DNA of 64,000 bases from Nitratireductor aquibiodomus NL21 = JCM 21793 (GTDB taxonomy: Bacteria > Pseudomonadota > Alphaproteobacteria > Rhizobiales > Rhizobiaceae). The DNA lies in contig NZ_BAMP01000013.1 of NCBI RefSeq assembly GCF_000615975.1, positions 1 through 64,000 of the forward strand, written 5' to 3'. Shown here in pieces: positions 36,695 to 46,293 of this stretch (its first letter is position 1; every line of letters begins with the position of its first letter). The position numbers and the translations under genes are program-made. The notes beneath the pieces were generated by a model. That model saw only the letters and a program-made list of their open reading frames with translations, was not told where the DNA came from and searched no databases.

Positions 36695-37390
36695 TCAGGC
36701 CTCGCCGATGGTGATGGCGATCTCGCCGATGCCGTCGACGCCGCCTTCCACCTGATCGCCCGGCTCAAGCGCGCCGACGCCGGCAGGCGTTCCGGTATAG
36801 ATCAGATCGCCGGCCTTCAGCTCCATGGCCTGGCTGCACAGTGCAATCACGTCGGCCACGGGCCAGATCAGCTCGTCCAGATCGCCTTCCTGGCGGATTT
36901 CGCCGTTGACGGCGAGCCAGACGCGGCCCTCAGACGGGTGACCGGTCTCGGCAACAGGCACGATGGGGCCACAGGGCGACGAGCGGTCGAACGCCTTGCC
37001 CCAGTCCCATGGTCGGCCTTTTTTCTTGGCATCGCCCTGAAGATCGCGCCGCGTGAGGTCGAGACCGACCGCATAACCATAGACGTGGTCGAGCGCATGG
37101 GCCGGGTCGATGTTGCTGCCGCCCTTGCCGATGGCGACGACCATCTCGATTTCGTGGTGAAGATCTTTGGTCAGGCTGGGATAGGGGATCACCGTGTCGG
37201 TATCCACCACGGCGTCAGCCGGTTTGGTGAAGAAGAATGGCGGCTCGCGGTCCGAATCATGGCCCATTTCGCGCGCGTGGGCGGCATAGTTGCGCCCGAC
37301 GCAGAAGATGCGCCGCACGGGAAAGCGCGCCTCGGTGCCGGAAACGGCAACGGAGGGCTGCGGGGCGGGCGGAAAAACGAAATCGGCCAT
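36695..37390 (-). CDS. Fumarylacetoacetate-hydrolase-family protein, fumarylpyruvate hydrolase-like
   Basis: A 231-residue metal-dependent C-C hydrolase from ATG 37390 (MADFVFPPAPQPSVAV), with GGGAGAG upstream. The FAH-fold motifs are present: RIFCVGRNYAAHAREMG, FFFTKPADAVV, the metal-ligand Glu pair in HHEIEMVVAIG, then GYAVGLDLTRRDLQ and GDLIYTGTPAGVGAL. The length and the opening resemble fumarylpyruvate hydrolases (NagK) of gentisate degradation more than the 420-residue homogentisate-pathway FAH. The partner isomerase is 1 bp downstream. Gentisate dioxygenase is not in the window, so the pair's role beside ectoine genes is open. Confidence 0.82.
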   Translation of the reverse strand: MADFVFPPAPQPSVAVSGTEARFPVRRIFCVGRNYAAHAREMGHDSDREPPFFFTKPADAVVDTDTVIPYPSLTKDLHHEIEMVVAIGKGGSNIDPAHALDHVYGYAVGLDLTRRDLQGDAKKKGRPWDWGKAFDRSSPCGPIVPVAETGHPSEGRVWLAVNGEIRQEGDLDELIWPVADVIALCSQAMELKAGDLIYTGTPAGVGALEPGDQVEGGVDGIGEIAITIGEA

Positions 37391-37471
37391 GAAACTCTCC
37401 CAGATGACTGGGAGAAGAGATGGCCGAATTGACGCTCCGGGGCAAGGCCCCGAAGCGCCCAAGTTTGGAGA

Positions 37472-38847
37472 TCAGCCTTGAAGACGCTCTTCACGGCCTT
37501 GGCGGTCGCATCGACAATCGTGTCTGCTTCTTCGCGCGTCAGACAAAGCGGGGGTGCAAAGCCCAGAATGTCGCCCTGTGGCATGGCGCGGCCGATGACG
37601 CCCTGTTCAAGAAGGGCTGCGGCCATCTGCGGGCCGATCTTCTCGGAAGCGTCGAAGAAGGAGCGGTTCTCGCGCTCTTTCACGAACTCGACGGCGCAGA
37701 GCATGCCTTCGCCGCGCACTTCGCCGACATGGGCGTGGTCGCCAATGGCATCACGCATGGCGTTGACGAAATAAGCGCCTGTCTCGCCGGCATTCTTCAC
37801 GAGACCGAGCTTGTCGACCAATTCGAGATTGGCGATGCCGGCTGCCGCGCCGATCGGATGGGCCGAATAGGTCCAGCCATGGCCGATCGGGCCATATTCA
37901 TCCGTGCCGCGCTCGAGCACTTCCCACATCTTCTTGCCGACGATGGAGCCGGAAAGCGGCGCATAGGCCGAGGTGAGGCCCTTGGCGATGGTGATGAGGT
38001 CGGGTTCCATGTCGTAATGGATGGAACCGAACATGGAGCCGAGGCGTCCAAAGCCGGTCACGACCTCGTCGGCGACGAGAAGGATGTCGTGCTTGCGCAG
38101 CACTTTCTGGATCGCGGCCCAGTATCCGGCCGGCGGCGGCACGATGCCGCCCGTGCCGAGCACGGGCTCGCCGATGAAGGCGGCGATGGTGTCCGCGCCC
38201 TCGCGCTCGATCAGCGCTTCGAGCTCCGCCACGCAATGGGCGGTGAACTGCTCCTCGCTCATGGAAAGGACCGGGCGGCGGTAGTAATAGGGCGCTTCGG
38301 TGTGGACCACCTGGGCAAGCGGCAGGTCGAACTTCTTGTGGAAGAGCTCAAGCCCGGTCAGCGAGCCGGTCATCAGGCCGGAGCCATGATAGCCGCGCCA
38401 GCGCGAGATGATCTTCTTCTTCTCGGGGCGGCCTAGTATGTTGTTGTAGTACCAGATCAGCTTGACGTTGGTTTCGTTGGCATCGGAGCCGCCGAGGCCG
38501 AAATAGACCTTGGACATATTTTCAGGCGCGCGGTCGACAATCATCTTGGCGAGCTTGATGGAGGCTTCCGTGCCGTGGCCCACATAGGCGTGGTAATAGG
38601 CAAGCTCCCTGGCCTGCTCGGCAATCGCATCAGCGATCTCGGTGCGGCCATAACCGACATTGACGCAATAGAGGCCGGCAAAGGCGTCGAGCAGCTTCTT
38701 GCCGTCGCGGTCCTCGATATAGACGCCATTGCCGCCGGTCACGATGCGGTTTGCGCTTTCGCCGCGCGCATGCTGGGCCAGGTGGGTCGAGGGGTGGAAG
38801 AAGGCCTCGCGGTCCCACTGGTCGAGTTGGTCGTTCTTCAACAGCAT
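37472..38847 (-). CDS. doeD: Diaminobutyrate transaminase DoeD, last codons shifted
   Basis: Class III PLP aminotransferase that converts L-2,4-diaminobutyrate to aspartate-semialdehyde in ectoine breakdown. It has Schiff-base Lys in DLITIAKGLTSAY, the PLP-phosphate region GLGGSDANETNVK, and VADEVVTGFGRLGSM. The open frame runs past the true end into the FAH gene; restoring one G of a GGG run near 37476 turns the terminal KADLQ into KG and a stop at 37472, giving 458 residues. AGGAGAG precedes ATG 38847. It lies 40 bp after doeC. Beta-alanine-type aminotransferases are close paralogues; the DoeD call rests mainly on context. Confidence 0.83.
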
Positions 38848-38886: not shown

Positions 38887-40371
38887 TCAACCGACGTTGC
38901 GGCAGACATATTTGATGTTGGTGAAGGCTTCCAGCCCATGGCGGGAGCCCTCGCGCTCAAGGCCCGCCTGCTTGACCCCGCCGAAGGGGATGGGCGCGCC
39001 GGTGATCTTGGTGCGGTTCACGGCCACCATGCCGAATTCGAGACCGCGCGAAAGGCGGGCGATGCGGCTGGGGTCCTGCGTGTGCAGATAGGCGGCGAGG
39101 CCGGTTTCGGTGTCGTTCGCCTTTTCGAGCACGTCCGCTTCGTCGTCGAAGGGCGTGAAGGCGGCAATCGGCCCAAACGTCTCCTCGCGGAAGATGAGGG
39201 CTGTTTCGGGCACATCGGCCAGAACTGTGGGGTCGAAAAAGGTGGGGCCGTGCCGCGACACTTTTCCGCCTGTTACGAGCCGCGCACCTTTTTCAAGCGC
39301 ATCGGCGACCTGTTCTTTCTGCTTCGCGACCGCGCGCTCATGGATGAGCGGGCCGATATCGGGATCGGTGAGGCCGTTGCCGACCGTCAGTTCCTCGACC
39401 TTGCGGGCGAATGCGGCGACGAAGGCGTCGTAGATGGGGCGCTCGATATAGAAGCGGTTGGCGGCAAGGCAGTCCTGTCCGGAGGTGGCGAACTTCGCCG
39501 AAATGGCGCTCTCGACCGCGTGGTCGAGGTCGCAATCGGCAAAGGCGATGAAGGGCGCATGGCCGCCAAGCTCCATGATGAGACGCTTCACGGTCGGCGC
39601 GGACTGCGCGTAGAGCAGGCGGCCGATCTCGGTGGAGCCTGTGAAGGAGACGGCGCGCACACGGGTTGAGGCGGTCATCGCGCCGACGACTTCGGCTGCC
39701 TTGCCGGTGAGCACGTTGAAGACGCCTGCCGGCACGCCGGCGCGCTCGGCGAGTTCTGCAAGGGCGAGTGCGGAGAACGGCGTCTCGGAAGAGGGGTGCG
39801 CGACCACGGTGCAGCCGGCGGCAAGGGCGGCTGCCGCCTTGCGGGTGAGCATGGCGGAGGGGAAGTTCCATGGCGTGACGAGGGCCGCGACACCCACCGG
39901 CTCGCGCGAAACCTGCATGTCCGCGCCCGGCAGGTGCGAAGCGACGCTCTCGACCGAAACGCGCTTGGCTTCCTCGGCGTAGAAGGAGACGAAGGAGGCG
40001 GCGTAATCGATCTCGCCGCGCGCTTCGGACAGCGGCTTGCCCTGTTCCAGAACCATGAGATGGGCGAGATCCTCCTTGGCGGCGACGATCAAATCGTACC
40101 AGCGCATCAGGATCTGCGCGCGCTCCTGTGGGAGAAGGGCGGCCCATGCGGGAAAGGCTGCGTGCGCTGCCTCGATGGTCTCACCAACCTGCTCTGCGGT
40201 GAGTGCCGGAACGCAGCCGAGCCGCGCGCCATCGGCCGGATTGTAGACATCCACCACTGGATCGCCGGGGGCGGCGATCCAGTGGCCATTCGCATAGGCG
40301 TATTCGCGGAACAGACGCGGATCGGCGAGATCGGACAGGGCGGTTTTCTGAAGGGCTGCAATAGCGGACAT
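38887..40371 (-). CDS. doeC: Aspartate-semialdehyde dehydrogenase of ectoine catabolism (DoeC)
   Basis: A 494-residue aldehyde dehydrogenase, GabD-like, that oxidises aspartate-semialdehyde to aspartate after DoeD. It has coenzyme site TPWNFPSAMLTRKAAAALA and FTGSTEIGRLL, general base Glu in IMELGGHAPF, and nucleophile Cys in SGQDCLAANRFYI. It differs from the gabD copy at 17865 by a single Cys instead of CVC. GGGAG precedes the ATG. A 127-bp gap separates it from doeX upstream, which may hold a separate promoter. Succinate-semialdehyde dehydrogenase is the alternative reading. Confidence 0.82.
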   Translation of the reverse strand: MSAIAALQKTALSDLADPRLFREYAYANGHWIAAPGDPVVDVYNPADGARLGCVPALTAEQVGETIEAAHAAFPAWAALLPQERAQILMRWYDLIVAAKEDLAHLMVLEQGKPLSEARGEIDYAASFVSFYAEEAKRVSVESVASHLPGADMQVSREPVGVAALVTPWNFPSAMLTRKAAAALAAGCTVVAHPSSETPFSALALAELAERAGVPAGVFNVLTGKAAEVVGAMTASTRVRAVSFTGSTEIGRLLYAQSAPTVKRLIMELGGHAPFIAFADCDLDHAVESAISAKFATSGQDCLAANRFYIERPIYDAFVAAFARKVEELTVGNGLTDPDIGPLIHERAVAKQKEQVADALEKGARLVTGGKVSRHGPTFFDPTVLADVPETALIFREETFGPIAAFTPFDDEADVLEKANDTETGLAAYLHTQDPSRIARLSRGLEFGMVAVNRTKITGAPIPFGGVKQAGLEREGSRHGLEAFTNIKYVCRNVG

Positions 40372-40498: not shown

Positions 40499-40999
40499 CT
40501 ATTCCTTCTGCGCCGTCTCGTCGGTGTTCACCAGAACTCCGAGCGGAAACGCGCCCGGCTGCTTCACCGGCTTGGTGACGATGTAGGTGAAATAGCGCGC
40601 AAGACCCACATTCATCTCAAGAAGCCTGTCGACCAGCCGCTGATAGGCGTCGATGTCGCGTGCGATGATCTGCAGGATATAGTCGAACCCGCCGCCGACA
40701 GCCCAGCAGCCGCTGATTTCATCGATGTCCTGCACGCTGCGTTCGAATCGCTGAAAGTCTTCCGCGCGGTGGCCAGAAAGTTCGGCGGCCATGAAAACGG
40801 CAATGTGGGGCGTGAGCTTCGCCAGCGCCACTTCTGCACGGTAGCCGGTGATGATCCCCGCCTTTTCAAGGCGTTTCAGCCGCTCCCAGCAGGGGGGCGG
40901 CGTCAGGTTGACGCGTTCGGCCAGCGCCGCCTTGGAGATGCGGCCTTCCCTTTGAAGGATACCGAGAATCTTGAGATCGCGATCGTCGAGCTTGAGCAT
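40499..40999 (-). CDS. doeX: Lrp/AsnC family regulator of ectoine catabolism (DoeX)
   Basis: A 166-residue regulator opening MLKLDDRDLKILGILQREG, with an AsnC-type HTH (ISKAALAERVNLTPPPCWERLKRLEKAGII) and an RAM domain (VGGGFDYILQIIARDIDAYQRLVDRL). The C-terminal tail after residue 140 (VTKPVKQPGAFPLGVLVNTDETA) is longer than in Lrp. DoeX-type proteins sit among ectoine-degradation genes and bind L-2,4-diaminobutyrate intermediates. It is translated 2 bp after eutC, so it belongs to the eutBC transcript. Confidence 0.85.
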   Translation of the reverse strand: MLKLDDRDLKILGILQREGRISKAALAERVNLTPPPCWERLKRLEKAGIITGYRAEVALAKLTPHIAVFMAAELSGHRAEDFQRFERSVQDIDEISGCWAVGGGFDYILQIIARDIDAYQRLVDRLLEMNVGLARYFTYIVTKPVKQPGAFPLGVLVNTDETAQKE

Positions 41000-41001
41000 G
41001 G

Positions 41002-41994
41002 TCAGCTCTGGATCGTCGTCCCGGCCTTCGCTGTCAAGGCCCGGGCGCGCGCAAATGTGGCAATGGCCGTGTCTTGCGCGCCCGTTCCGGTGAGGTCGCA
41101 GATGGTGATCTGGTCATCGCCGGTGCGGCCGGTACCGGCTCCAGAAACGATGTCTCCGAGTTCGGGTGGCGTGCCGCCATGCCATACGCCGTCATGAATC
41201 GCGGCTGCCAGTTCGCCGAGTTTTTCGCACTGGCTCACACGGTCGGCGACGTAGAGATCGGCGCGGGTGAGAGCCGTCGGCTCGATCTCGTTCTTGCCTT
41301 CCTGATCGGAGCCCATGGCGGTGATGTGGAGCCCCGGATGCAGCCAATCGGCTTTGAGAACAGGTTCTCGGGCCGGCGTGGTGGTGACGACAAGCTGGCT
41401 TTGGGCGACGAGGCTGGCCGGGTCCGTTTCAGCTCTAACGTTGATGCCGAGGGTTTCGGCCAGTTCGGCGGCGCAGGCTTTTGCCTTTGCCGCATCGCGC
41501 CCCCAGACGAGAAGGCGGGAGAAGTGGCGCACCTGATGCGCGGCGATCATTTGCAGGCGGGCCTGCACGCCGGTTCCCATGACGCCGGCGGTTTCGATTT
41601 CGGGCGGAGCCAGATGGCGGGCGGCGACCGCGCCGGCGGCCGCGGTGCGCAAATCGGTCAAAAAGCCATTGTCGAGCAGAAGCGCCTCCACGAGGCCGGT
41701 TTTTGCGGAAAACAGGATCATCAGGCCATTGAGGCTCGGCAGGCCGATCTTCGGATTGTCGAAGAAACCGGGGCTGACCTTGATGGCGAAGCCTTCAAAG
41801 CCGGGAATATAGGCGGTTTTCACATCCACCTCGCCATGAACCTGCGGAATGTCCATGGAAAGGATGGGCGGCATGATGACCTGGCCGGAGGCGAGCGCGC
41901 GGAAGGCTTCTTCCACCACGTCGATGGCTTCAAGGTCGAGGCGGATGGCCTTGCGCAGATCGGCTTCGGTCAGGACGAGAATGTCATGCGGCAT
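41002..41994 (-). CDS. eutC: Ornithine cyclodeaminase-family protein EutC (ectoine utilisation)
   Basis: A 330-residue protein of the ornithine-cyclodeaminase/mu-crystallin family. The NAD site is GVMGTGVQARLQMIAAHQ. Upstream it has VDVKTAYIPGFEGFAIKVSPGFFDNP with the conserved Lys residue, and downstream SDQEGKNEIEPTALTRADLYVADRVSQ. I place the start at ATG 41994 (MPHDILVLTEADLR); the open frame continues through the overlapping eutB. It overlaps eutB by 11 bp. EutC accompanies EutB in hydroxyectoine/ectoine degradation, but its exact reaction is not settled. Confidence 0.85.
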   Translation of the reverse strand: MPHDILVLTEADLRKAIRLDLEAIDVVEEAFRALASGQVIMPPILSMDIPQVHGEVDVKTAYIPGFEGFAIKVSPGFFDNPKIGLPSLNGLMILFSAKTGLVEALLLDNGFLTDLRTAAAGAVAARHLAPPEIETAGVMGTGVQARLQMIAAHQVRHFSRLLVWGRDAAKAKACAAELAETLGINVRAETDPASLVAQSQLVVTTTPAREPVLKADWLHPGLHITAMGSDQEGKNEIEPTALTRADLYVADRVSQCEKLGELAAAIHDGVWHGGTPPELGDIVSGAGTGRTGDDQITICDLTGTGAQDTAIATFARARALTAKAGTTIQS

Positions 41995-43006
41995 GGGGCG
42001 CTCCCTTGATGATCGTGTCGCCGAGCGCGACATCGCGGCCACAGACGATGTCGGTGAAGATCTGCATATCGACATTGCGTCCGGTGATGAGCGTGGCGGT
42101 GGGGCCGATTCTTCCGGAGATCTTGCCGGCCATGAGGGCGGCGGTACCGACGGCACTCGCCCCTTCGCACACCAGCCGGTCTTCGAAATAATGCGCCTGC
42201 ATGGCGCGATAGATTTCTTCCTCGGTGACGAGCACGACATCATCCAGATGATTGCGGCAAAGGTCGAAGGAATGTCGGTTTTCAAGCCCGATCCCGCCGC
42301 CAAGCGAATCGGCGAGGCTCGCCACCTCGGTGATGGCGACCGGCATTCCGGCGGCAAGCGAGGCGTGCATGGCTGCACCCCGCTCCATGGTGATGCCAAT
42401 GACGCGGATGGAGGGCTTGATCGCCTTCAGGGCAAAGGCGATGCCGCCGGCGAGCCCGCCGCCCGACAAAGGAATGAGCACGGTTTCAAGATCCGGGCGC
42501 TGTTCCAGGAGCTCAAGCCCTATCGTGCCCTGACCGGCGATGACGGCCAGATCGTCGAAGGGCGAGATTTCACAGAAGCCTTCCTCCTCGGCGAGGCGGC
42601 GGCTTTCGACCTGCGCTTCGTCCTGGCTTGCGCCGATGATGCGGGCCTCGGCACCAAGCGCCCTGATGCCGGCGATTTTCGCCTCCGGTACCAGCTTCGA
42701 CATGCAGATGACGGCGCGCAGGCCACGCGCGCGTGCCGCATAGGCAACCGCGCGGCCATGATTGCCGGTCGAGCAGCAGGCCACGCCGGTGGCGTCGCCG
42801 GGCAGGGTGAGGACCGCATTGGCGGCACCGCGCAGCTTGAAGGCGCCGCTTGCCTGTCCGATTTCGAGCTTGAGGAGGACGTCATCACCCGCGAGACGGC
42901 TGAGAAAGGGCGAGGGCGGGAGAGGGGTATCGAGTGTCGCAATACCGGCAATGCGGCGACGCGCGGCCAGAATGTCTGCCAGCGCAAGCGTAGCCCTGTG
43001 GCTCAT
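41984..43006 (-). CDS. eutB: Hydroxyectoine utilisation dehydratase EutB
   Basis: PLP-dependent threonine-dehydratase-fold enzyme of 340 residues from ATG 43006 (MSHRATLALADILAARRR), with GGGAG upstream; the frame stays open to 43348 through the divergent promoter without looking like protein. The PLP Lys is in ASGAFKLRGAAN and the phosphate-binding Gly loop in LIPLSGGGLAGGI. In ectoine-degraders EutB is proposed to convert the hydroxyectoine-derived product so that it joins the ectoine route. First gene of the minus-strand operon and divergent from doeA. Confidence 0.87.
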   Translation of the reverse strand: MSHRATLALADILAARRRIAGIATLDTPLPPSPFLSRLAGDDVLLKLEIGQASGAFKLRGAANAVLTLPGDATGVACCSTGNHGRAVAYAARARGLRAVICMSKLVPEAKIAGIRALGAEARIIGASQDEAQVESRRLAEEEGFCEISPFDDLAVIAGQGTIGLELLEQRPDLETVLIPLSGGGLAGGIAFALKAIKPSIRVIGITMERGAAMHASLAAGMPVAITEVASLADSLGGGIGLENRHSFDLCRNHLDDVVLVTEEEIYRAMQAHYFEDRLVCEGASAVGTAALMAGKISGRIGPTATLITGRNVDMQIFTDIVCGRDVALGDTIIKGAPHAA

Positions 43007-43050
43007 GAAAATCTCCCGGATTGTCTGCGAGGCAGCGTGATGGTGCTGAT

Positions 43051-43060
43051 TTGTACACAA
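43051..43060. promoter_or_regulatory. GntR-type operator, copy 1 (TTGTACACAA)
   Basis: Inverted half-sites TTGT and ACAA with a 2-bp spacer fit the TNGT-Nx-ACNA pattern of FadR/FCD-type GntR operators. It lies 45 bp upstream of eutB. An identical 10-mer occurs at 43145. The GntR gene at 45601, cotranscribed with doeA, is the likely binder. Confidence 0.6.
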
Positions 43061-43086
43061 CATCGTTGGCTCGGGAATAGAAGTAG

Positions 43087-43101
43087 CGACATTCGATGTC
43101 G
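43087..43101. promoter_or_regulatory. Inverted repeat in the eutB-doeA promoter region
   Basis: CGACAT-TCG-ATGTCG is a perfect inverted repeat with 6-bp arms, midway between the two TTGTACACAA sites. It may be a site for the Lrp-type DoeX or another regulator; no direct evidence. Confidence 0.4.
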
Positions 43102-43144
43102 TTTTCCTGCGATTCACCGGCTCGAAAATGTGATCATGGAATAG

Positions 43145-43154
43145 TTGTACACAA
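43145..43154. promoter_or_regulatory. GntR-type operator, copy 2 (TTGTACACAA)
   Basis: Exact copy of the site at 43051, 76 bp upstream of doeA. The two starts are 94 bp apart, near nine turns of B-DNA, which would place them on the same helical face. Confidence 0.6.
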
Positions 43155-43229
43155 GGTTGCGAATTGCCTTTCCGGTGTACGGTTTCGCCGGGTGCAAAAG
43201 CGTCCGGTCTTTCGCTTTTTGGAGGAACC

Positions 43230-44414
43230 ATGCCAGCAGCCGAAATGCCCTTCAGCGCGCAGGAATATGCCGCTCGCCTCGAAAAGACCCGCAACGCCAT
43301 GGAGGCGAAGGGTATCGATGTTCTGTTCGTGGAAGATCCCTCCAACATGGCCTGGCTGACGGGTTATGACGGATGGTCGTTCTATGTCCATCAGGGGGTG
43401 ATCGTCTTCAAGGATGCCGACCCGATCTGGTGGGGCCGGTCGATGGACGGGAACGGCGCCGTGCGCACGGTCTATATGGATGACGACCGGGTGCTGCGCT
43501 ATCCCGACCACTATGTGCAGGCCAACACGCTGCATCCGATGCAGCATCTGGCCGAAATTTTGCGCGCCCACGGCTTCGGTAACAAGCGGGTCGGCGTGGA
43601 GCTGGAGAACTACTATTTCTCCGCCAAGGCCTATCTGGTTTTGAAGGAAGAACTGCCCAACGCCACCTTTGTGGACGCGACGGCGCTGGTGAACTGGCAG
43701 CGTGCGGTGAAATCTGACGAGGAAATCGTCTTCATGCGCCGGGCGGCGCGGATCTCCGAAAAGATGATCGACGGCATTGTCGAGCGCATCGAGCCGGGCC
43801 TGAAAAAAAACGATCTGGTGGCCGAGATCTATGCCGACGCGATCCGCGGCGTCGATGATGACTGGGGCGAATATCCGGCCATCGTGCCGCTACTGCCGAC
43901 GGGCTCCGACGCCGCCGCACCGCATCTGACCTGGGACGGGCGGCGCTTCGAGCAGGGGCATGCGACCTTCTTCGAAATCGCCGGCTGCTATCGCCGCTAC
44001 CACGCGCCGCTCTGCCGCACCGTGTTTCTCGGCACGCCGCCGCAGCACATGCTGGATGCGGAAAAGGCGTTGGTGGAAGGCATCGAGGCGGGATTGGAGA
44101 TCGCGCGGCCGGGCAACCGCGCAGGCCAGATCGCCGATGCGCTCTATGGCGCGCTGGAGCGGGCCGGCATCACGCGGGACGGGCGCTGCGGTTATCCGAT
44201 CGGCATTTCCTATCCGCCAGACTGGGGCGAGCGCACAATCTCGCTGCGCCGCGAGGACGAGACAATTCTGGAAGCGGGCATGACGTTCCATTTCATGCCG
44301 GGCCTGTGGATGGCCGATTGGGGGCTGGAAATCACCGAAAGCATCCTGATCACGGAAGATGGCCCGGCCGAGGCGCTTTGCCGCCGCCCGCGCGAACTGA
44401 TCGTGAAGAACTGA
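43230..44414 (+). CDS. doeA: Ectoine hydrolase DoeA
   Basis: Opens the ectoine ring to N-alpha-acetyl-L-2,4-diaminobutyrate, the first step of ectoine catabolism. The 394-residue protein has the two-domain creatinase/M24 'pita-bread' fold: an N-terminal creatinase domain (EKTRNAMEAKGIDVLFVEDP, then GYDGWSFYVHQGVIVF) and a C-terminal domain from about 165 (WQRAVKSDEEIVFMRRAARI) ending TFHFMPGLWMADWGLEITES. A strong GGAGGAACC-ATG fixes the start at 43230. doeB2 follows by 3 bp. The DoeA call is supported by sequence flavour and by doeX/doeC/doeD/eutBC next door. Confidence 0.88.
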   Translation: MPAAEMPFSAQEYAARLEKTRNAMEAKGIDVLFVEDPSNMAWLTGYDGWSFYVHQGVIVFKDADPIWWGRSMDGNGAVRTVYMDDDRVLRYPDHYVQANTLHPMQHLAEILRAHGFGNKRVGVELENYYFSAKAYLVLKEELPNATFVDATALVNWQRAVKSDEEIVFMRRAARISEKMIDGIVERIEPGLKKNDLVAEIYADAIRGVDDDWGEYPAIVPLLPTGSDAAAPHLTWDGRRFEQGHATFFEIAGCYRRYHAPLCRTVFLGTPPQHMLDAEKALVEGIEAGLEIARPGNRAGQIADALYGALERAGITRDGRCGYPIGISYPPDWGERTISLRREDETILEAGMTFHFMPGLWMADWGLEITESILITEDGPAEALCRRPRELIVKN

Positions 44415-44417
44415 TCC

Positions 44418-45581
44418 ATGCGATCCGAAACGCTGGAAAACACGACGCGCATCCTGTCCGATCTGGTGGGGTTTCCCACCATTTCGGCAGAGAGCAATCT
44501 GGAGATGATCGCCTATGCCAGCGAGCTTTTTAGCGCGCTCGGTGCAAGGCTTTCAATGACGCTGGACGAGAGTGGGCACAAGGCGAACCTGTTTGCCACG
44601 CTTGGGCCCGAAGGGGATGGCGGTATCGTGCTTTCGGGCCATTCCGACGTCGTTCCCGTTGAGGGGCAGGAGTGGACGAGCGATCCGTTCGCCATGCGTG
44701 AAGCAGATGGCAGGCTTTATGGCCGTGGCACGTGCGACATGAAGGGGTTCATCGCCTGCACGCTCGCCATGGCGCCGCACTTTGCCGAGCTGGACCTGAA
44801 ACGGCCAATGCATTTCGCCTTCACCTATGACGAGGAGGTCGGGTGTTTTGGTGCCCGCGCGCTGGTGGAGGAGCTGGAGCGGGCGGAAATCCGGCCCTCC
44901 GTCGCCATCATTGGCGAGCCGACCATGATGCGCATCATCGAGGGTCACAAGGGCTGCTTTGAATACACGACCGAGTTTCGCGGGCTTGCCGGCCATGCCT
45001 CTTCTCCTGAACGCGGCGTCAATGCGGTTGAATATGCGGTGCGCTATATTTCGCGGCTCATGGCGCTGGCCGAGGATCTGAAGACGCGTGCGCCGAAGGG
45101 CAACCGGTTCGATCCGCCCTGGACGACGCTTCAGGTCGGCACGATCTCGGGTGGTGCGGCCCGCAACGTGATTGCCGACCACTGCTCCGTGGAATGGGAA
45201 ATGCGCCCGGTGCGCAATGAGGATGCGGATTTTGTGAAAGACCGTATCCGAGCGTTTGTCGAATCCGAGCTGAAGCCAGTCATGAAGGCGGTTTTTGAGG
45301 GCGCTGACATCGTCACCCATGTGATCGGTGAGGTGGACGGGCTGGAGCCGGTAACCGAATCGGAGGCGCGGCAGATCGTTTCGGAGCTTACCGGTCTCAC
45401 CGAGGCGGAAGTGGTGGCGTTCGGCACGGAGGCGGGGCTTTTCCAGAAAGCGGGGATATCCTCCGTCATCTGCGGGCCGGGCTCCATCGAACAGGCGCAC
45501 AAGGCAGACGAGTTCGTTTCTCTGGAACAGCTCGAAGAATGCCTTGGCATGCTTGACCGGCTGGGCAGAAAGGTGAGCTGA
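44418..45581 (+). CDS. doeB2: N-acetyl-diaminobutyrate deacetylase, M20 type (DoeB2)
   Basis: A 387-residue di-zinc M20 amidohydrolase, ArgE-like. Metal motifs: LSGHSDVVPVEGQEW, GRGTCDMKGF, TYDEEVGCFGA (catalytic Glu pair), IGEPTMM and, near the end, the last His in IEQAHKADEFV. The lid domain is at about 180-300 with GHASSPERGVNA. It directly follows doeA, so it most likely removes the acetyl group from N-alpha-acetyl-diaminobutyrate. Canonical DoeB/EutE is an AstE-type enzyme; the M20 form is a replacement. Biosynthetic ArgE is the alternative. Confidence 0.82.
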   Translation: MRSETLENTTRILSDLVGFPTISAESNLEMIAYASELFSALGARLSMTLDESGHKANLFATLGPEGDGGIVLSGHSDVVPVEGQEWTSDPFAMREADGRLYGRGTCDMKGFIACTLAMAPHFAELDLKRPMHFAFTYDEEVGCFGARALVEELERAEIRPSVAIIGEPTMMRIIEGHKGCFEYTTEFRGLAGHASSPERGVNAVEYAVRYISRLMALAEDLKTRAPKGNRFDPPWTTLQVGTISGGAARNVIADHCSVEWEMRPVRNEDADFVKDRIRAFVESELKPVMKAVFEGADIVTHVIGEVDGLEPVTESEARQIVSELTGLTEAEVVAFGTEAGLFQKAGISSVICGPGSIEQAHKADEFVSLEQLEECLGMLDRLGRKVS

Positions 45582-45600: not shown

Positions 45601-46293
45601 ATGACAGGCGAGGCACGTGCGCGGTTCGAGCGTATCTACACGCTTTTGCGCGAACGCATCTGTCTGCTCGACTATCCGCCGGGCATGCGGCTGCGCGAAG
45701 AAGACCTCGCCGAGGAATTCGACACCAGCCGAACGCCGATCCGCCGGGTTCTGGCCCGGCTCGAGGACGAGGGTTATCTGCGCTCTGTCCATGGCGTGGG
45801 AACCATCGTCACGGATATCGACATCGCCTCGCTGGAACAGGTCTACCGCCTGCGTGTGGAGCTTTCGGAGCTGATCGGCAAGCTTTCACCGATAGAGCCC
45901 GATGAAGACGCCAAACGCGCCTTCGCTGGCATGAAGACGCGCTGTGAGGCTTTGGTGAGAACGCCCAGCCAGCGCGCCTTTGCACAGCTCAATATGGATT
46001 TTTTCCATCTTTTGATGACGCTGACGGAAAACGAGCCTCTGCAGGAGTTTTCCGAACGGTTGTACTATCAGACCACGCGGATCTGGCTAAAGCGTGCGGC
46101 CGGCGAGGACGGCACGGAAGAAACGCTTGCCAGCGAGATCGGCTTTTTCCTGCGCGAAGTCTCCGACATTGCCGCAGCCGTTGCCTGCGGGGCGCTGGAA
46201 AGCGTCGGGCAAATCCGCCGCGCCCATGTGGCCATGAGTTTTGCTCGCCTGAAGGAAAGGGCAGGCGAAGAGGTGGAGGCCGGACCTCTTTAA
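45601..46293 (+). CDS. GntR family regulator, FCD-like
   Basis: A 230-residue regulator with a winged HTH at the N-terminus (YPPGMRLREEDLAEEFDTSRTPIRRVLARLEDEGYLRSVHGVGTIV) and an all-helical ligand domain (about 80-220) of FCD type but divergent. It is 19 bp after doeB2 on the same strand, so it is likely the local repressor of ectoine genes and the best candidate for the two TTGTACACAA sites. It is not the aminotransferase-fused EnuR type. A palindromic terminator follows. Confidence 0.83.
   Translation: MTGEARARFERIYTLLRERICLLDYPPGMRLREEDLAEEFDTSRTPIRRVLARLEDEGYLRSVHGVGTIVTDIDIASLEQVYRLRVELSELIGKLSPIEPDEDAKRAFAGMKTRCEALVRTPSQRAFAQLNMDFFHLLMTLTENEPLQEFSERLYYQTTRIWLKRAAGEDGTEETLASEIGFFLREVSDIAAAVACGALESVGQIRRAHVAMSFARLKERAGEEVEAGPL

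Follow-up and report, generated by a model that had tools for sequence, protein, structure and literature searches.

Atu1419 of Agrobacterium fabrum is an FCD-type GntR regulator of the VanR group, a group which, in the account of PMC7797058, has six helices in its C-terminal domain where the FadR group has seven. According to the same account, Atu1419 is a tetramer in which each dimer binds ATGTATACAT, and one of its intergenic regions contains two palindromes 190 bp (18.1 helical turns) apart. In another region a degenerate second site lies 109 bp away (10.4 turns, hence no whole number), and looping across the 190 bp was proposed from the tetramer and not from the spacing (PMC7797058). Structures are available as PDB entries 6Z74, 6ZA0, 6ZA3, 6ZA7 and 6ZAB.

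Pairs of palindromes in divergent promoters are described for the FadR subfamily, where a class with constant distance was read as cooperative; the FCD operator rule given in the same source consists of TKGT and ACMA boxes with GT and AC 2–3 nt apart (PMC4494728). A word search of the main text of that paper gave no hit for period, helical turn, DNA turn, same side or face of, and none for ectoine. The known repressor of ectoine catabolism, EnuR (also EutR), is described as a MocR/GabR-type protein with the operator ATTGT-N6-ACAAT (PMC8739950, PMC5320631, PMC5924519). The regulators found in PMC13188858 are EnuR, AsnC and, for Bacillota, PucR; the words GntR and FCD were not found there. No FCD regulator of ectoine catabolism was found in the open-access literature searched.

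Short loops formed by the Lac repressor depend on helical phase, as is known from engineered spacers, and one of its natural operator distances is near 92 bp. The Lac repressor belongs to an unrelated protein family, and its phase dependence was read from engineered spacers, whereas the present analysis draws on natural variation.

Here we describe a pair of identical sites between eutB and doeA in a 64,000-nucleotide stretch of Nitratireductor aquibiodomus DNA (the window). Like the Atu1419 system, the locus combines a six-helix FCD GntR protein with a 10-bp palindrome of core TGTAYACA and two palindromes per intergenic region; unlike the window locus, Atu1419 controls hydroxycinnamate genes, and its 190 bp compare with 94 bp in the window. 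The two proteins are about 22–24% identical in a fold alignment. With EnuR, which in many clusters is encoded beside an AsnC protein, the locus shares the pathway and the linked genes; EnuR has an aminotransferase domain with PLP, whereas the window protein has an FCD domain, and a Pfam scan found no aminotransferase domain in it at E 0.001. The palindrome pair in divergent promoters recalls the double sites of the FadR subfamily. Paired operators with a probable loop are of a kind known already, while the regulator for the ectoine pathway and the natural record of helical phase appear to be new within the literature searched.

The gene cluster and its paired sites

The rightward run of genes begins with doeA (eutD), encoding ectoine hydrolase (43230–44414, plus strand; NCBIfam TIGR02993, 629 bits against a cut-off of 613). 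It continues with a doeB-like gene for an M20 deacylase (44418–45581, plus strand; NCBIfam name acetylornithine deacetylase), called doeB from its position beside doeA, and ends with the gene for the FCD-type GntR regulator, the proposed binder of both sites (45601–46293, plus strand). The three genes lie on the same strand with gaps of 3 and 19 bp, an arrangement that agrees with their predicted cotranscription as a doeA–doeB–gntR operon. The leftward run, on the minus strand, begins with eutB, encoding hydroxyectoine utilisation dehydratase (41984–43006; NF005680 and TIGR02991 both above cut-off), divergent from doeA. It is followed by an ornithine cyclodeaminase-like gene that we take, from gene order, to be eutC (41002–41994), by a gene for an AsnC/Lrp-type regulator (40499–40999; PF01037 and PF13412; asnC/doeX by position), by an aldehyde dehydrogenase gene (38887–40371; best NCBIfam match NF008415, below its cut-off), presumably doeC/ssd, and by the gene for a doeD-type aminotransferase (37189–38847). 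The names doeC and doeD are our assumption from position and, in the case of doeD, from homologs. The doeD frame extends about 95 codons beyond the roughly 457 aa aligned in relatives and overlaps an open reading frame at 36695–37462, which hints at a frameshift or a lost stop in the draft genome.

The gap between the ATG of eutB (43006, minus strand) and the ATG of doeA (43230) spans 223 bp (43007–43229). Two identical copies of TTGTACACAA were confirmed inside it: a left candidate operator on the eutB side (43051–43060, core TGTACACA at 43052–43059) and a right candidate operator on the doeA side (43145–43154, core TGTACACA at 43146–43153), 94 bp apart from start to start. The TTGT and ACAA arms are perfect and the central AC is not self-complementary; in its letters, TTGT-AC-ACAA with a GT-to-AC gap of 2 nt fits the FCD rule.

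In the draft genome of the window (4,513,145 bp, 86.6% complete), TTGTACACAA occurs in 3 exact copies, as does the same pattern read backwards as a control, and genome-wide word count was therefore dropped as evidence. Because the genome holds no more copies of the word than of the control, the signal is the pairing in the gap and not the word itself. The genome has 35 occurrences of TTGTNNACAA and 25 of its control; two of the 35 lie in the eutB–doeA gap, where the density of TTGTNNACAA predicts about 0.002 sites per 223 bp. The pair is thus far beyond chance, as the earlier note had argued, and the above-average A+T content of intergenic DNA does not alter this.

Both cores are present in all ten genomes of the window's genus group (G000, the window's own, to G009), always 94 bp apart, and the 84-bp stretch between the sites has diverged among them to 55–95% ungapped identity with its length fixed. 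At one locus of this group (L041), the core pair lies well over 100 bp farther from doeA and the spacing is still 94 bp. Three more loci from records also named Nitratireductor (L061, L067 and L080) have core spacings of 93, 93 and 94 bp. At another locus (L040), the operon divergent from doeA starts with an ABC transporter, which from sequence and gene order is read as ehu, followed by eutB, and the operator pair stays with doeA. In a search for an ectoine ABC transporter outside the cluster, the ehuB-like protein of that locus, used as a query, found one 39% relative in the window's genome and none at E 1e-25 in six sister genomes.

The regulator and its co-occurrence with the sites

The GntR protein scored 63.1 bits against PF00392 (cut-off 27) and 27.6 bits against PF07729 (cut-off 24.3), and thus has the N-terminal GntR winged helix and C-terminal FCD domain that characterize the FCD subfamily. 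In its predicted model (mean pLDDT 89.4), the C-terminal helices span residues 76–91, 102–120, 124–139, 145–167, 173–195 and 199–227, so that by its modelled fold the protein falls in the VanR group. Atu1419 is its top match in the PDB by sequence, narrowly (E 5.8e-11, against 1.1e-10 for the runner-up), and its top Foldseek match by E-value. By VIA-align, McbR, AlkR and six other entries (Z 20.8–17.8) are nearer to the model than Atu1419 (Z 16.5). Because these eight entries are structurally closer, a tetramer is not readable from the fold, and the tetrameric state suggested by analogy with Atu1419 is a lead rather than a result.

A doeA search returned matches at E 0.001 in 90 of 100 genomes, counting weak paralogs; the window's locus and the 29 other loci with the best matches were then compared over the 400 bp upstream of doeA. 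A gntR ortholog lies beside doeA at 16 of these 30 loci, and every one of the 16 carries TGTRYACA upstream; the core is found at none of the 14 loci that have no gntR ortholog (Fisher p 7e-9, with relatedness ignored). The earlier note had named absence of the site upstream of orthologous eutB/doeA genes as a refutation; this check did not refute its reading. With a single-protein query the gntR orthologs scored 246–494 bits, and the next best match was a paralog in G034 at 103 bits. With a profile, the ortholog of G079 scored 270 bits and G096 gave a 155-bit match on another contig than doeA; the other profile matches listed were under 90 bits. At the G079 locus (L029), the core was seen before the genome had been searched for GntR, and the gene was then found close behind doeA. 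A scan of genome contigs with a GntR alignment yielded 73 loci, of which 69 have a doeA, doeB, eutB or eutC match (at least 37% identity over at least 100 aa) in the stretch examined. This co-occurrence, the core TGTRYACA and the binding of ATGTATACAT by the FCD relative Atu1419 together support the proposal that the sites are FCD-type GntR operators.

The relationship to EnuR was examined in the same 30 loci. The exact pattern TTGT-N6-ACAA occurs in none of the 30 doeA upstream regions, the window's included. The protein beside the L053 cluster, which has GntR and aminotransferase domains, served as the EnuR-like query. Matches of at least 50% identity on the doeA contig were found in 4 of the 14 GntR-less genomes (one of them the query's own) and in 0 of the 16 GntR-positive ones, and because of this distribution the FCD protein may replace EnuR, standing in for it in these clusters. 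Weaker MocR-type matches (29–40%) occur in GntR-less and GntR-positive genomes alike. The window's genome, at 86.6% completeness, gave no EnuR-like gene at E 1e-50, and 10 of the 14 GntR-less genomes showed neither GntR nor an EnuR-like match of at least 50% identity on the doeA contig. Six proteins near GntR-less clusters were scanned, giving one MocR-type protein (L053), one ROK protein (L050) and four with no regulator match.

Enrichment of the core in a wider set of loci

Wider searches covered the family (394 genomes), the class (385) and the family to which the genome of locus L113 belongs (394), and gave matches in 74, 12 and 46 genomes, respectively. About 80 stretches were taken by score (from ~190 bits up) and filled to 100 with G079, G099 and two weaker matches, the remaining weaker matches of about 140–180 bits being left out. 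Subtraction of 7 loci without gntR and 41 with identical gntR from a total of 194 left 103 doeA-anchored and 43 gntR-anchored loci. All 103 doeA loci with non-identical gntR have at least one exact core within 450 bp, and 93 of them, the window included, have two, that is, two palindromes in the regulated intergenic region as described for Atu1419. In the controls on the 103 loci, the reversed pattern was found at 4 (at one of them twice), the count inside doeA was 0 and mononucleotide shuffles gave 1.9.

At loci with a single exact core, a partner was sought with a weight matrix built from the exact pairs, irrespective of phase, at more than 15 bp from the core and within the 450-bp upstream region or within 320 bp. 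The score limit was set at ~7.6 (weakest exact site 7.63; the partner of L222 lies at the limit). Ten doeA loci have one exact core; six of them have a partner, at 105, 95, 83, 103, 104 and 86 bp, and none was found at the score limit in the other four (L043, L186, L209 and L220). For the 29 lone cores at gntR-anchored loci, 11 partners were found (95, 96, 96, 74, 96, 97, 95, 97, 85, 95 and 94 bp). The 18 cores with no partner at the limit have several weak candidates in phase and several out of phase, none of which was counted. The partners at the score limit are in phase in 17 of 17 instances, which are not 17 independent cases, the gntR-anchored group being largely one related set. Six loci (L117–L121 and L123, four of them named Roseovarius) belong to a more distant GntR set (42–45% identity) and have a single CTGTATACAG-type core before gntR, with no second site at the score limit.

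Helical phase of the spacing

The earlier note had remarked that 94 bp is close to nine helical turns, so that both sites would face the same side of the DNA, as suits looping. The exact adjacent pairs no more than 300 bp apart number 104, of which 92 fall into three narrow classes: 15 at 82–85 bp, 52 at 93–97 bp and 25 at 102–107 bp. None of the 104 lies at 86–92, 98–101 or 108–115 bp, and the pairs outside the three classes are spaced by 23, 63, 73, 74, 116, 125, 129, 218, 234, 294 (two pairs) and 297 bp. Within a quarter turn of whole 10.5-bp turns lie 100 of the 104 pairs, where about half would be expected by chance, and the four out of phase are at 102, 129, 234 and 297 bp. The sites are thus mostly whole turns apart on one face of the helix, as the operators of a looping repressor would be, and this quantisation across loci supports the suggestion of same-face binding or looping.

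The resultant R is 0.77 at 10.5 bp for the 104 pairs. Rayleigh p-values overstate independence on related loci; when each GntR cluster at 80% identity contributes a single value (58 clusters; median over 500 draws), R comes to 0.72 with p 6e-14, and at 70% identity (32 clusters) and 65% identity (13 clusters) p is 1e-7 and 0.003, the worst draw of the latter giving 0.06. When periods between 5 and 21 bp are scanned, the 58 clusters give a peak at 10.55 bp; the 90 doeA pairs of 60–140 bp give a flat maximum at 10.7–10.8 bp. In the controls, the distances that separate each site from the start codon of doeA, phase is absent (R 0.12 and 0.07; with clusters as units, R 0.20 and 0.23 with p 0.12 and 0.08).

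The most cautious figure comes from a quick tree of 101 GntR proteins, taken from loci with a single spacing of 50–300 bp; L125 (23 bp) and L225 (two spacings) were left out, 16 distances were taken by hand and turn classes were obtained by rounding the distance at 10.5 bp. The number of turns changed at least 16 times on this tree, and 13 of the 16 changes are within a quarter turn (Rayleigh p 8e-4, V-test p 1e-4). When only the 13 changes under 150 bp are used, the Rayleigh and V-test values are 5e-4 and 5e-5. Two spacings stand out. The cores of L125 (Hoeflea marina) are 23 bp, or about two turns, apart, unlike those of the other 103 exact pairs. L178 and L179 have 294 bp (28 turns) compared to 102–103 bp in the same 70%-identity GntR cluster, an insertion of ~191 bp with the phase kept.

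Proposed mechanism and alternatives

A leftward TTGAC is located 29–31 bp from the start of the left core at 59 of 90 loci, which would place this core close to the beginning of a leftward promoter. Among the cluster representatives, the right core precedes the start codon of doeA by 18 to 198 bp. No conserved –35 element is seen for the rightward promoter: across the 90 spacers, TTGAC turns up at 4 scattered positions. A search of the window itself found no consensus sigma-70 promoter, and the eutB-type clusters closest to it have not retained the TTGAC of the relatives.

We consider it probable that a VanR-group FCD repressor holds both divergent ectoine-catabolism promoters from one face of the DNA, most plausibly by looping. 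The gap would hold back-to-back promoters, one for eutB leftward and one for doeA–doeB–gntR rightward, and the cluster's own VanR-group FCD GntR protein is predicted from the sequence to bind both 10-mers as paired operators. We infer that it acts by repression rather than activation, so that occupation of both sites would shut both operons, including the regulator's own gene. By analogy with EnuR, an intermediate of ectoine breakdown, either N-alpha-acetyl-diaminobutyrate or diaminobutyrate, might act as the inducer that releases it. Contact between the two bound dimers would explain why the sites stay on the same helical face, mostly at 8, 9 or 10 turns according to lineage (9 in the window), and the simplest form of such contact would be a dimer of dimers that closes a small DNA loop. 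A short loop requires a spacing of whole turns; other same-face contacts would fit it as well.

The same GntR protein might instead use two independent operators, each blocking RNA polymerase with no contact between dimers, the phase then following from the back-to-back layout of the promoters. We regard this as unlikely. One palindrome is reported to suffice for binding by Atu1419 (PMC7797058), and the fixed distance between left core and TTGAC makes the phases of site and promoter inseparable on that side; yet independent operators need no whole-turn spacing, and the phase is kept from 63 to 125 bp and at 294 bp. Nor does the rightward side offer a conserved –35 element to which the right site could be tied, and the distances from site to start codon are free.

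It is still less probable, and in our view only a slight possibility, that the sites are owned by another regulator, be it EnuR/MocR, AsnC/DoeX or an FCD paralog encoded outside the cluster. GntR/FCD relatives are indeed common (tens of first-look candidates per genome) and asnC is also part of the clusters, but the sites track the presence of gntR (16/16 versus 0/14), and asnC is present in the GntR-less, motif-free clusters L049 and L053 (doeA upstream regions L020 and L024). The spacing of the EnuR operator differs (N6), its pattern is missing from the 30 upstream regions, and the incomplete genome of the window gave no EnuR-like gene at the threshold used. With the operator mismatch and with asnC in motif-free clusters, ownership by EnuR or AsnC is unsupported. 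That the 10-mers are chance or merely inherited, functionless sequence has a negligible probability. The word is not enriched genome-wide and the ten genus-group genomes are related, but their spacers have diverged (55–95% identity) at a fixed length, and cores occur at 103 of 103 doeA loci with gntR, next to different divergent genes, against 4 for the reversed pattern. We judge this reading refuted by the helical spacing pattern and the core enrichment.

Such a repressor, acting from one face, and its sites would be concrete candidates for the regulator and operator of ectoine-eating clusters that showed no EnuR gene. On the wider scale, we lean towards the view that a separate FCD-GntR lineage replaces EnuR in many Alphaproteobacteria, with a tiny whole-turn loop whose length has shifted in whole-turn steps about a dozen times during evolution. 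The loci provide a comparative record of a probable loop, in which spacer length varied across natural promoters and helical phase was mostly kept. If this view is correct, natural genomes amount to a helical-phasing experiment for a protein group whose looping has apparently only been proposed so far, and the natural spacers of 63, 73, 84, 94, 105, 116 and 125 bp make looping by FCD repressors directly testable.

Additional sites

The third copy of TTGTACACAA in the window's genome, read as AGTTTGTACACAAGTG at G000:C206:75704–75713 (stretches L003 and L229), lies upstream of a binding protein gene that we take to be of the LivK type. It is identical in all ten genus-group genomes, but conservation extends to its flanks, and a second TGTRYACA was not found in the stretches around it. 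The LivK-type gene is a candidate for a second member of the regulon. Its frame in the window's genome (1448–2892 of L003) looks broken, with two overlapping frames and 338 aa compared to 465–505 aa in nine relatives, perhaps through an assembly error.

Between the paired operators lies a separate inverted repeat, CGACATTCGATGTCG (43087–43101, CGAC-N7-GTCG). The earlier note had placed it midway; the repeat is present, and its centre is ~8 bp to the left of the midpoint between the sites. In every one of the ten genus-group genomes, CGAC-N7-GTCG recurs at a constant offset of 35 bp from the left core; it was not found at L061, L067 and L080, from the further Nitratireductor records. Across the 103 doeA loci with gntR, CGAC-N5-8-GTCG occurs at 19, of which 10 are those of the genus group; shuffles gave 4.4. 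The repeat is a possible site for a second factor or regulator, for which no candidate protein was found. CGAC/GTCG look-alikes end 18 bp ahead of a core at L197, L218, L219 and L222.
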